From contig JAPLOI010000050.1 of the NCBI GenBank assembly GCA_026400815.1, positions 1 to 37,430 of the forward strand: a DNA stretch of 37,430 bases, in the 5' to 3' direction. Positions 474 to 3,926 of the stretch are shown piece after piece. The notes below the pieces were generated by a model that did no database searches, had not been told where the DNA came from, and worked only from the letters and a program-made list of their open reading frames with translations. The position numbers and the translations under genes were made by a program. The stretch is from Alphaproteobacteria bacterium (GTDB lineage: Bacteria > Pseudomonadota > Alphaproteobacteria > Acetobacterales > Acetobacteraceae). The first letter of the stretch is position 1; every line of letters starts with the position of its first letter.

Positions 474-2360
474 TCAGGCGACCAGGGAGGCGCGCTCCAT
501 GCTGGCGCGGGCCCAGGCAGCGGCGGCGTCCTCGTCGAACAGCTCGGTAAGCTTCTTCATCATGGTGCCGCCGAGTTCCTCGGCATCCACGATCGTCACG
601 GCGCGGCGGTAGTAGCGCGTCACGTCGTGGCCGATGCCGATGGCGATGAGTTCCACGGCTTCGCGGTTCTCGATCTCGCGGATCACCTCACGCAGGTGCT
701 TCTCCAGGTAGTTGCCGGGGTTCACCGACAGCGTGCTGTCATCCACCGGCGCGCCGTCGCTGATCACCATCAGGATGCGGCGATGCTCCGGGCGGCCCAT
801 CAGGCGCTTGTAGGCCCACTGCAGCGCCTCGCCGTCGATGTTCTCCTTCAACAGCCCTTCGCGCAGCATCAGGCCAAGGTTCTTGCGGGCGCGGCGCCAG
901 GGGGCGTCGGCGGCCTTGTAGATGATGTGGCGCAGATCGTTCAGGCGGCCCGGGTTGCGCGGCTTGCCGTCGGCCACCCAACGCTCGCGCGCCTGCCCGC
1001 CCTTCCAGGCGCGGGTGGTGAAGCCCAGCACTTCCACCTTCACGCCGCAGCGCTCCAGCGTGCGCGACAGGATGTCGCCGCACATGGCCGCCACGGTGAT
1101 CGGCCGGCCGCGCATGGAGCCGGAATTGTCGATCAGCAGCGATACGACGGTGTCGCGGAAATCGGTATCCCGCTCCTGCTTGAACGACAGTGCGAGCAGC
1201 GGGTTGGTGACGACGCGAGCGAGGCGGCCGGCATCGAGGATGCCTTCGTCCAGGTCGAAATCCCAGCTGCGGGTCTGCTGCGCCATCAGCTTGCGCTGCA
1301 GGCGGTTGGCGAGCTTGGAGACGACGCCCTGAAGGTGCTGCAGCTGCTGGTCCAGCTGCTGGCGCAGGCGGGCGAGTTCCTCGGAATCGCAGAGATCCTC
1401 GGCGTCCACTTCCTCGTCGAAGGCGCGGACATAGGGCTTGTAGACGTTCTCGTTGTCGGCCAGCGGCTTGTCGCGGCGCGGCTGCGGGCCGCCGGGCTTG
1501 TCGTCGCCTTCGGCGGCGGCGGCTTCCTCCTCGGAATCCTCCGCACCCTCGTCCTCGGCGGCTTCGCCCTCCATTTCCTCGGGCTGGGCGCCGAGCATGG
1601 ATTCGCTCTCGCTGTCGGACTGGCCTTCGCTGTCCTGCGAGTTGTCCTGCTGGCCAGACTGCTCGCCGCCGTCCTCGCCGTCGTTCTCGTCGTTCTCGTC
1701 GCTGTCCACCTCGGCCTCGGCGAGGTCCATCGCGGCGAGCAGCTTGCGCGCGGCGCGGGTGAAGGTGGCCTGGTCGTCCATGGTGCGGGCGAGTTCGTCG
1801 AGCGCTTCGTCCGCCCCCTCGCCCAGCGTGCCGCGCCAGAGGTCGAGCACCTTCTGCGCCGCGGGGGGGCTCGGCTCGCCGGACATGCGCTCGCGCGCCA
1901 GCAGGGCCAGGGCCTGGTGGACCGGCAGCTGGTCCTTGCGGGTCATCCGGTCGAAGCCTTCGGCCTCGCATTCCTCCTGCAGGCGGACCCGCAGGTTGTT
2001 GGCCACGCCCGACATAAACTTGGCGCCGACCACTTCCACGCGCGCCTGCTCGATGGCGTCGTAGGCATCCTTCGCCTCGCGGCGCGCTGGCATGCGGGCG
2101 TTGTGCACGGCGTCGTCGTGGTGGCGCAGGCGCAGGGCGAGGCTATCGGCCGCGCCACGCAGCTTGGCCATTTCGTTGGCCGGCAGCGCGCGGGTGGGCA
2201 GCGGCAGGCGGGCGCGCTTGCCGGCGAGGCCCGAGGGCCCCGGCTGGAAGGCAACCTGCACCTCGTTGTTCTGGGCGATGGCGCGCAGCACGCCGGCGGT
2301 GGCGCGCTTGAACTCTTCCGTTCGGGTGTTGTCCTTGGAACCGGATCCGCTGCCGCTCAT
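474..2360 (-). CDS. cobT: Cobaltochelatase subunit CobT
   Basis: CobT works with CobS and CobN to insert cobalt into hydrogenobyrinic acid a,c-diamide in the aerobic vitamin B12 pathway. CobT and CobS form the ATP-dependent chaperone-like part, in the cytoplasm. The 628-residue product has the family layout: an N-terminal CobT domain, a very acidic linker at about residues 210-305 (long runs of D, E and S), and a C-terminal von Willebrand A domain. The MIDAS metal motif DNSGSMRG is at about residue 410. Length is normal for CobT. The ATG at 2360 is preceded by GAGG about 8 nt upstream. It lies downstream of cobS on the same strand, but a GxxExxY cassette of about 475 bp separates the two, so co-transcription would have to read through that cassette. 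No cobN is seen in the window. Confidence 0.95.
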
Positions 2361-2428
2361 CGTATCGCCTCACGCATCGAAGGGGGCCGGACGTCGCCTT
2401 GCGTTGGCGGCGTCAAGGAAAGGGAAGT

Positions 2429-2469
2429 GGTCACAGAGAGCACAGAGGGCCACAGAGAGCACGGAGAAG
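2429..2469 (+). repeat. 41-bp inverted repeat arm, left
   Basis: The arm starts GGTCACAGAGAGCACAGAG and ends CACAGAGAGCACGGAGAAG. It matches the reverse complement of the right arm at 40 of 41 positions. A further partial unit (TCACAGAGAG) follows at 2479-2488 and contains the stop codon of the GxxExxY gene. Confidence 0.9.
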
Positions 2470-2478
2470 AAAGAGGTA

Positions 2479-2862
2479 TCACAGAGAGTAGCGCTTCAGG
2501 CCCGCCGTCAGGCTGCGGGCGTGAAAGTTCATGAGCCGTCCACGGCGGTAGCCGCCGAAGCGGAGATAGGTCAGGACTTGGGACTCATGCACCGGCAACA
2601 CCTGTTCGACCGCCTTGAGTTCAACCACCAGTTCGCCGGCGACCAGCACATCGATCCGAAACCCGATGCCGACGGGTGTTCCCCGATAGCTGACGGGCAC
2701 CGGAAACTGTCGTTCGAAGGGAATGCCCGCCTGAGCCAGTTCCAGGCAAAGGCATTCCTCGTAGATCGACTCCAGCATGCCCGGGCCAAGTTCGCGATGC
2801 ACCGCGATGGCGCAACCGATGACCTCGTGTGTCAGCGAATCGCCAACCGGACCTTGCTCCAC
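2479..2862 (-). CDS. GxxExxY family protein (PD-(D/E)XK nuclease-like fold)
   Basis: This is a small protein of the GxxExxY family, whose role is not established; the family is placed in the PD-(D/E)XK nuclease superfamily. From the GTG at 2862 the product is 127 residues, the usual family size. The namesake motif is GMLESIY (Gly28, Glu31, Tyr34). The nuclease-like core follows: Asp71 in FRIDVLV, then Glu81 and Lys83 in VVELKAV. The frame stays open upstream to 3012 inside cobS, but that extension only translates the repeat arm and the cobS end. GTG is preferred because GGAG lies 3-7 nt before it and the length then fits. The last residues (YSL-stop) are encoded in a CACAGAG repeat unit. It sits between cobS and cobT on the same strand but has no evident role in cobalamin synthesis. 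Confidence 0.85.
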   Translation of the reverse strand: MEQGPVGDSLTHEVIGCAIAVHRELGPGMLESIYEECLCLELAQAGIPFERQFPVPVSYRGTPVGIGFRIDVLVAGELVVELKAVEQVLPVHESQVLTYLRFGGYRRGRLMNFHARSLTAGLKRYSL

Positions 2863-2903
2863 CTTCTCCGTGCTCTCTGTGGTCCTCTGTGCTCTCTGTG
2901 ACC
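2863..2903 (-). repeat. 41-bp inverted repeat arm, right
   Basis: This arm is the reverse complement of the left arm with one substitution. On the minus strand it ends CACGGAGAAG directly before a GTG codon, so its last bases (GGAG) form a plausible ribosome binding site for the enclosed gene. Confidence 0.9.
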
Positions 2904-2921
2904 GCTTTGCTTTCTTCTGTC

Positions 2922-3926
2922 CTAGCGCTTCATGAAGGCGCCGGTGGCGACTTCCGCGTTGAAGCAGCGCTGGAAATACTCGGCCACCGTCTGGCGCTCC
3001 GCCTCGTCGCACTTGTTCAGGAACGACAGGCGGAAGGCGAAACCGACATCGTTGAAGATGCGGGTGTTTTCGGCCCAGGTGATCACGGTGCGGGGGCTCA
3101 TCACGGTGGAGATGTCACCGTTGATGAAGCCGGCGCGGGTCAGGTCGGCCAGCGCCACCATGCTCTCGATCTGCTTCTTGCCCTTCGTGTCCGACGCGTC
3201 CATGCCCATCTTGGCCATGACGATTTCGGTTTCCTGGCCGTGCGGCAGGTAGTTCAGGGTGGAGACGATGTTCCAGCGGTCCATCTGGCCCTGATTGATC
3301 TGCTGGGTGCCATGATACAGGCCGGTGGTGTCGCCGAGGCCCACGGTGTTCGCGGTGGCGAACAGGCGGAAGCTGCGGTGCGGGCGGATCACCTTGTTCT
3401 GGTCGAGCAGGGTGAGCTTGCCCTCAACTTCCAGCACGCGCTGGATCACGAACATCACGTCCGGGCGGCCGGCGTCGTACTCGTCGAACACCAGGGCGCA
3501 GGCATGCTGCAGCGCCCAGGGGAGGATGCCCTCGCGGAACTCCGTCACCTGCTTGCCGTCCTTGAGGACGATGGCGTCCTTGCCGATCAGGTCGATGCGG
3601 CTGATGTGGCTATCCAGGTTGACGCGGATGCAGGGCCAGTTGAGGCGGGCGGCGACCTGCTCGATATGCGTCGACTTGCCGGTGCCGTGGTAGCCCTGGA
3701 TCATCACGCGGCGGTTGAAGGCGAACCCGGCCACGATGGCCAGCGTGGTCTCCTTGTCGAACCGGTAGGTCGGGTCGAGCTCGGGCACATGCTCGGTGCG
3801 GGTGGTGAAGGCCGGCACCTGAAGATCGCTGTCGATCCCGAACACCTCGCGGGCGTTCACGGTGGTGTCCGGCATATCAATCGCGGACGTCGGCGCGGGG
3901 CGGTCGGAGGCGGCAACCTGGTTCAT
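2922..3926 (-). CDS. cobS: Cobaltochelatase subunit CobS
   Basis: CobS is the AAA+ ATPase subunit of the aerobic cobaltochelatase. With CobT it forms the ring assembly that drives cobalt insertion by CobN. The 334-residue product is of normal length. It shows a Walker A motif GYHGTGKST at about residues 77-85, a Walker B-type [11 protein letters not shown] at about 142-152, and later AAA+ features ([12 protein letters not shown] as sensor region, [16 protein letters not shown]). The ATG at 3926 has AGGA about 10 nt upstream. It heads the cobS-cassette-cobT arrangement; the J-domain gene lies 116 bp upstream on the same strand, a common neighbour of cobS in alphaproteobacteria. Confidence 0.95.

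Follow-up and report, generated by a model that had tools for sequence, protein, structure and literature searches.

A small gene enclosed by long inverted repeats lies between cobS and cobT in an Acetobacteraceae genome, raising the question of whether this cassette is a mobile element and, if so, of what kind. The features are listed in Table 1, with positions given in the window, which is the whole 37,430-nt stretch of DNA that was analyzed. Sequence comparison suggests that a small nuclease-like gene and matching repeat-word arms make up a kind of selfish DNA not described before, of which the host genome also holds many copies without the gene. The cassette itself is probably the gene-bearing copy of a repeat family similar to the REPIN/RAYT systems, with a PD-(D/E)XK enzyme that would read the repeat words, cut, and spread the repeats through repair.

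Table 1. The cassette in the cobS-cobT spacer and the two adjoining genes.
Feature	Position	Strand	Properties
cobT-side arm	2418..2469 (core 2429-2469)		words CACAGAG, CACAGAG, CACAGAG, CACGGAG, spacing 9, 10, 9 nt; inverted-repeat search
cobS-side arm	2863..2914 (core 2863-2903)		reverse complement of the cobT-side arm; inverted-repeat search
GxxExxY / PDDEXK_3 gene	2479..2862	-	127 aa; GTG start at 2862, 2479 with stop; D71, E81, K83 core
cobS	2922..3926	-	TIGR01650, 584.8 bits (cut-off 558.55); upstream codirectional neighbor
cobT	474..2360	-	TIGR01651, 826.3 bits (cut-off 759.05); downstream codirectional neighbor

The arms are a true inverted pair, but they are not unique to the cassette. 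Their cores are 41 nt long and 97.6% complementary in the inverted-repeat search, and with flanks included they reach 52 nt, of which 92% is matched. Each arm consists of four CACRGAG words at the spacing given in Table 1 and has an AAG-rich outer end. The preliminary description of 41-bp inverted arms around one small gene between cobS and cobT is upheld, the neighbors being identified by family models. One qualification is that the arm recurs at many places in the genome. The cobS-side arm ends on its inner side in GGAGAAG, directly next to the GTG start, and this sequence may serve the GxxExxY gene as ribosome-binding site. Since all three genes are on one strand, the order of transcription is cobS, GxxExxY, cobT.

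The cassette protein is, by sequence, a plain member of the curated GxxExxY family (TIGR04256 / PF13366). The longer open reading frame that contains the gene is far over both family cut-offs, with 133.8 bits for PF13366 (cut-off 22) and 137.6 bits for TIGR04256 (cut-off 35). At E values up to 0.001 the protein matched PF13366 alone in Pfam and TIGR04256 alone in NCBIfam, with no match to TIGR02436. The GxxExxY motif (G28, E31, Y34) and the core residues D71, E81, and K83, both claimed from the start, are invariant in an alignment of 36 sequences. The AlphaFold2 model (pLDDT 91.7) has an order of helices and strands that fits the PD-(D/E)XK fold. The closest solved structures are those of SSO0001 (a Cas4), AdnAB, Exo5, lambda exonuclease, and a Holliday junction resolvase from an archaeon; these matches are weak, with a best E value of 0.005 and none at or below 0.001. 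The protein is thus predicted to adopt a PD-(D/E)XK fold that weakly resembles those of Cas4, Hjc, and lambda exonuclease, and a nuclease role is a prediction from that fold. A search of the PDB by sequence gave one match (E 0.5), which was taken as chance. Two other identities were considered and dropped: the protein matched no PADLOC anti-phage defense family at E up to 1, and no known phage family. The TIGR04256 and PF13366 models are silent on arms, gene-less copies, and function, and no function for GxxExxY was found in this analysis. No description of CACRGAG-type arm words or of such arm and gene elements was found in the openly available literature.

Plasmid or phage carriage was rejected, with GxxExxY present in 8 of 72,556 plasmid records and 0 of 50,697 phage records (E up to 1e-5). 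One of the plasmid copies, in Sphingomonas (NZ_CP155749.1, L186), is packed between fabD and fabG at distances of 33 nt and 2 nt, respectively, so that arms would hardly fit, and it is possibly a domesticated copy. A GxxExxY protein is also listed for a virus of the haptophyte alga Chrysochromulina parva in the accessible part of a report on that genome (PMC12085832).

The cobS-cobT spacers of related genomes indicate that the cassette is an addition. Nine genomes of the genus were compared, including its own (G000). The cassette is present in G000 and in G008, whose locus (L181) is 95.8% identical to the window over 6.2 kb. A diverged cassette occupies the site in G001, where the gene was found only as two pieces in different frames. 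The cassette appears to have been inserted, because four of the nine genomes (G002, G004, G005, and G006) have a short spacer without it; these are the close relatives with an empty spacer that the preliminary description had proposed to look for. G007 has another inverted repeat in the spacer, with GAGACGG-like words (L037, C338), and the assembly of G003 does not cover the site, the match there being confined to the end of a contig. The spacers without the cassette contain a short CCGGCGGA/TCCGCCGG hairpin (L036, L038, L039, L040), perhaps a terminator.

Most other copies of the arms in the cassette's own genome have no gene between them. An arm search gave 81 match rows, in which one arm may count up to twice. 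Gene-less inverted pairs were found by script at 19 of the 23 further places read, and a twentieth (L010) was recognized by eye. The arms read at these places begin AAGCGAAG-GGTCACAGAG, and they are arrays of words rather than short GTAG-tagged palindromes. Their loops are 14-70 nt long. Among the 16 loops of at least 20 nt, the longest match between loops is 10 nt and the longest match to the gene is 9 nt. The gene-less copies are therefore not deletion-derivative MITEs, as the interior of the parent is not kept and the loops are unrelated. They conserve the word and not a private stem. In 18 gene-less elements, the left and right arms of the same element match no better than arms of different elements (mean score 35.38 vs 35.45, p 0.54), and own-arm pairing was rejected as a conserved feature of these copies. 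The window cassette and L032 are exceptions, each having its own two arms as mutual best match. Wide occurrence of the arms with no gene inside had been proposed at the outset as evidence against a mobile cassette; the gene-less pairs are read here as its relatives, in the way that REPINs are related to a RAYT. The genome has two further GxxExxY genes, at G000:C28:1662-2009 (L077) and G000:C51:12619-12963 (L065). Both lie between inverted arms of their own, of related but different wording, so that the expectation of identical arms around each gene was not borne out.

The gene-less elements are polymorphic among congeners, and both their loops and their word families turn over. The joined flanks of 14 gene-less elements were searched in six congeners. 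Empty sites were found for L009 (in G005 and G006), L010 (G001), L013 (G001, G005, G006), L017 (G006, G007, G008), and L025 (G001, G007). No target-site duplication was seen at the aligned empty sites, and at several sites there are 10-35 extra bases beside the arms. At other sites a different family of words is present. In G005, CGCCAAG words occupy L011 and L027, and CACGGAG/CGCGGAG words occupy L025 and L032; the former are also present at L010 in G007 and the latter at L027 in G008. At the L014, L020, L026, and L029 sites, one or more of G001, G005, G006, and G007 have an AT-rich hairpin. This AAGAAGCAAAAAGACTTT-like hairpin family (L315, L316, L319, L323, L324, L325, L311) sits where the own genome has CACAGAG elements. 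The same word family is kept between conserved flanks with a different loop at L010 and L025 in G008 and at L013 in G003; other orthologous pairs share the loop, for example L019 in G008.

The elements of the genus fall into three word families, whose numbers differ greatly between genomes. CGCCAAG triples number 34, 47, 37, 22, and 25 in G000, G003, G005, G007, and G008 and are absent from G001, G002, G004, and G006 (reversed control 0). The corresponding counts for CACGGAG/CGCGGAG triples are 9, 8, 23, 10, and 15 in the first group and 2, 0, 0, and 1 in the second (reversed control 3 in G000 and 2 in G008). Match rows to the window region, with the gene and its neighbors included, number 80, 105, 72, and 94 in G000, G003, G007, and G008 and 10, 5, 3, 4, and 3 in G001, G002, G004, G005, and G006. 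GxxExxY genes are present in seven of the nine genomes, with CGCCAAG arms in G003 and G008 and with CACGGAG arms in G003 and G005. Window-type arms abound in G007, as do CGCCAAG arrays in G000, G005, and G007; in none of these cases was a gene found with arms of the type concerned. The correspondence between genes and gene-less copies within the genus is therefore only partial. In six congeners a GxxExxY gene lies downstream of one shared flank (..GGACGTTCTTCTGA; L061, L065, L093, L094, L097, L105). At these loci the wording of the arms varies from genome to genome, and the two arms of a gene mostly change together.

Arms of this kind accompany GxxExxY genes in many phyla. From 566 confirmed candidates, the 80 loci most similar to an LLES-type alignment were chosen regardless of arms. 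Flanking inverted repeats of at least 30 bits were found at 41 of the 80 loci vs 0 of 240 control windows taken within these loci, and at 26 bits the counts are 50 of 80 vs 4 of 240. The remaining 39 have no clear inverted repeat at 30 bits, and seven of them lie close to the end of a contig. Of 30 loci in a second set, 16 have repeats of at least 30 bits. Among the 41 armed loci, one (L156) is not word-like; by record titles the other 40 belong to Pseudomonadota, Acidobacteriota, Chloroflexota, Planctomycetota, Spirochaetota, Verrucomicrobiota, Bacteroidota, and Nitrospinota. That GxxExxY genes elsewhere would also lie between inverted repeats of related wording agrees with the original proposal. 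The genes are mostly oriented with their neighbors. By a simple open reading frame rule applied to 55 loci, 33 genes have the strand of both neighbors, 7 are opposed to both, and 15 are mixed (33 vs 7, p 4e-5). This codirectional bias suggests that the cassette genes rely on read-through for expression.

Orientation bears on two other explanations of the elements. GxxExxY could serve the host as a word-reading DNA-binding protein or a domesticated nuclease, with the gene-less hairpins acting as regulatory, terminator, or repair sites. Such a role would fit the conservation of words while loops drift, the intergenic position of the elements, the retention of genes in operons in sense orientation, and the tight placement of the Sphingomonas plasmid copy. 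It is nevertheless quite unlikely, given that elements and genes are patchy between congeners, that only 15 of 120 genomes of the family have GxxExxY, and that the gene is broken in G001.

The other explanation, which appears very improbable, is that the arms fold in the transcript and the cassette is cut out of the mRNA, as RNase III removes intervening sequences from 23S rRNA. Many PD-(D/E)XK proteins act on DNA, and the arms of a gene-less copy match each other no better than those of other copies. A search of 13 loci against Rfam gave 63 matches, mostly to miRNA hairpin models, none of which is over the gathering score. The read-through orientation agrees with excision from RNA. So does the presence, in some of the same genomes, of TIGR02436 genes between tandem-word arms; in Coxiella, an intervening sequence with an S23 open reading frame is termed a selfish element and is excised by RNase III, according to the accessible text of PMC4990558. 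TIGR02436 four-helix-bundle genes were found in 20 of 80 genomes, and the inverted repeats reach 30 bits at 6 of 17 loci examined. Inverted arms of 7-nt tandem words such as GAGGGGT, AGGCAAT, and AGATGTG are clearest at L264, L267, and L275 and also occur at L258, L259, and L261; no CACRGAG words were seen in the arms of the loci examined. These genes form a parallel system with another vocabulary.

The class of arm word follows the subfamily of the GxxExxY protein. At 169 loci, the words lying up to 220 bp from the gene were assigned to classes by a permissive rule under which 89 of 510 control windows also reach three words. LLES-type genes (133) have GAG-class words (GAG/AAG) in 126 cases, with 1 mixed, 6 without words, and none with GAT or AAT. 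FLEK/FLEx-type genes (26) have GAT words in 17 cases and AAT words in 3, with 1 mixed, 5 without words, and none with GAG. Other subfamilies gave 6 GAG and 4 without words. Words pointing inward outnumber those pointing outward by 855 to 183. On a FastTree protein tree built from few columns, with many forks unresolved, the three classes require 2 changes over 152 labeled loci, the minimum, compared with a shuffled mean of 19.3. The 12 FLE-type loci that were fetched after the GAT class was noticed gave 6 GAT, 3 AAT, 1 mixed, and 2 without words, the AAT class having been defined only after two of these 12 and the GAT loci L356 and L357 being near-copies. Four genomes (G022, G300, G339, G363) have both LLES and FLE subfamilies, each with its own words. 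The GAG class spans 20 NCBI phylum labels by the permissive count, several of them with one locus and with binning errors in metagenome-assembled genomes possible; its single archaeal locus has no clear inverted repeat. All GAT and AAT loci come from Pseudomonadota, apart from one on a Fusobacteria plasmid. Coevolution of the exact word with the protein was not upheld, as the signal inside the GAG class is weak (42 changes vs a shuffled mean of 63.4 at 122 loci, and 29 vs 35.3 at the 71 loci of L106-L185). The simplest reading of the correspondence between subfamily and word class is recognition of the word by the GxxExxY protein. This would give the family a directly testable function, sequence-specific recognition of that word.

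A different enzyme could also spread the elements, with the GxxExxY gene merely riding in some of the loops. This is an unlikely explanation, because arm wording tracks the GxxExxY subfamily even within one genome, which a passenger would not impose. What speaks for it is that some genomes have arms without a detected GxxExxY gene and that arms and gene do not co-occur beyond chance inside family f38. In 398 Pseudomonadota genomes the CACAGAG pattern occurs in 34, GxxExxY in 65 (64 over the cut-off), and both in 20 by hand count (p 3e-9). Fourteen of the 34 have CACAGAG arrays without a detected GxxExxY gene, for example G280 (43 matches) and G162 (18). In family f38 (74 genomes, hand count) there is no association, with GxxExxY in 17 of 26 genomes that have the pattern vs 28 of 48 others (p 0.62); outside f38 the fractions are 3 of 8 vs 17 of 316 (p 0.009). 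Because the pattern captures a single vocabulary, the test carries little weight in either direction, and co-occurrence was set aside as support, being weak overall and absent inside f38. The alternative enzymes that were compared, and the best known, are the Y1 transposases (PF01797), which match in 15 of 27 genomes. At none of the 20 Y1 loci examined (30 were fetched) does the best inverted repeat consist of these words, of which at most five, scattered, occur in 1.4 kb of flank. Several have GTAG or GGGGTCAGG-type arms. The Y1 gene of the own genome (L391, G000:C53:15978-16313) has a GTAG-type REP hairpin and served as a positive control of the arm method. Mobilization of the word-arm elements by Y1 or RAYT enzymes was rejected on these results.

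A PD-(D/E)XK enzyme that acts on the words of its own arms would account for the elements. The association of arms with genes, the correspondence of protein and word, the gene-less copies and their polymorphism among congeners, the differing loops at one site, and the orientation bias are read directly from the sequences; word binding, cleavage, repair-mediated spread, and read-through expression are what we infer from them. The GxxExxY nuclease would recognize the iterated words (CACRGAG here) and cut at or near elements that bear them. Repair would then take the arms from another copy and at times bring along the gene in its loop. Such copying would homogenize the arms within a genome, allow loops to turn over, and seed gene-less hairpins in intergenic DNA. 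The gene would be expressed by read-through from a codirectional operon, with the arm supplying the ribosome-binding site. The suggestion in the preliminary description of a minimal mobile element, or one mobilized in trans, stays plausible, with movement itself putative; no target-site duplication was seen. A tentative extension, possible though not the likelier outcome, is that GxxExxY proteins in general act as enzymes for a new class of selfish DNA, spread over many prokaryotic phyla. The protein subfamilies would read different iterated 7-nt words (GAG, GAT, AAT class), and the elements would not propagate as fixed sequences but spread by rewriting arms at intergenic sites, with loop and word family turning over. 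If so, intergenic hairpin repeats in several phyla would be explained.

Several known systems share features with these elements. The 23S rRNA intervening sequences also carry a small open reading frame in a selfish element (accessible text of PMC4990558), and several of the TIGR02436 genes seen here likewise have tandem-word arms; their protein is unrelated, their vocabulary is different (7-nt period in the clearest cases), and the window cassette is not in rRNA. The Rpn / transposase_31 proteins are PD-(D/E)XK nucleases with a proposed part in gene acquisition. However, the cassette protein matches PF13366 and not PF04754 or PF12784, and the accessible part of PMC5350276 describes RpnA as largely non-specific and makes no mention of arms. 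Insertion sequences with MITEs differ in that the aligned empty sites here lack target-site duplications and the gene-less copies lack a parental interior. TIRYTs and TIRtrons likewise have long inverted repeats around a small gene, and some are accompanied by repeat families that lack the gene, but in the part of PMC3733652 consulted they are Y1 transposases and the reported repeats share GGGGWSAS rather than CACRGAG words. The closest likeness is to REPIN/RAYT systems as presented in the accessible sections of PMC3116915 and PMC3733652. These also have inverted doublets of short repeats in intergenic DNA with many gene-less copies, one enzyme gene flanked by repeats that also occur without it (as holds for the window cassette), a repeat family that matches the type of enzyme, and no clean insertion footprint. 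The enzyme differs, RAYT being an HUH Y1 transposase according to the same sections and the enzyme here a predicted PD-(D/E)XK protein. The arms also differ, as they are iterated words without the GTAG tag, with unrelated loops and a word code that extends across several phyla. If the proposed mechanism is correct, a way of life like that of REPIN/RAYT systems has also evolved around an enzyme of unrelated origin.
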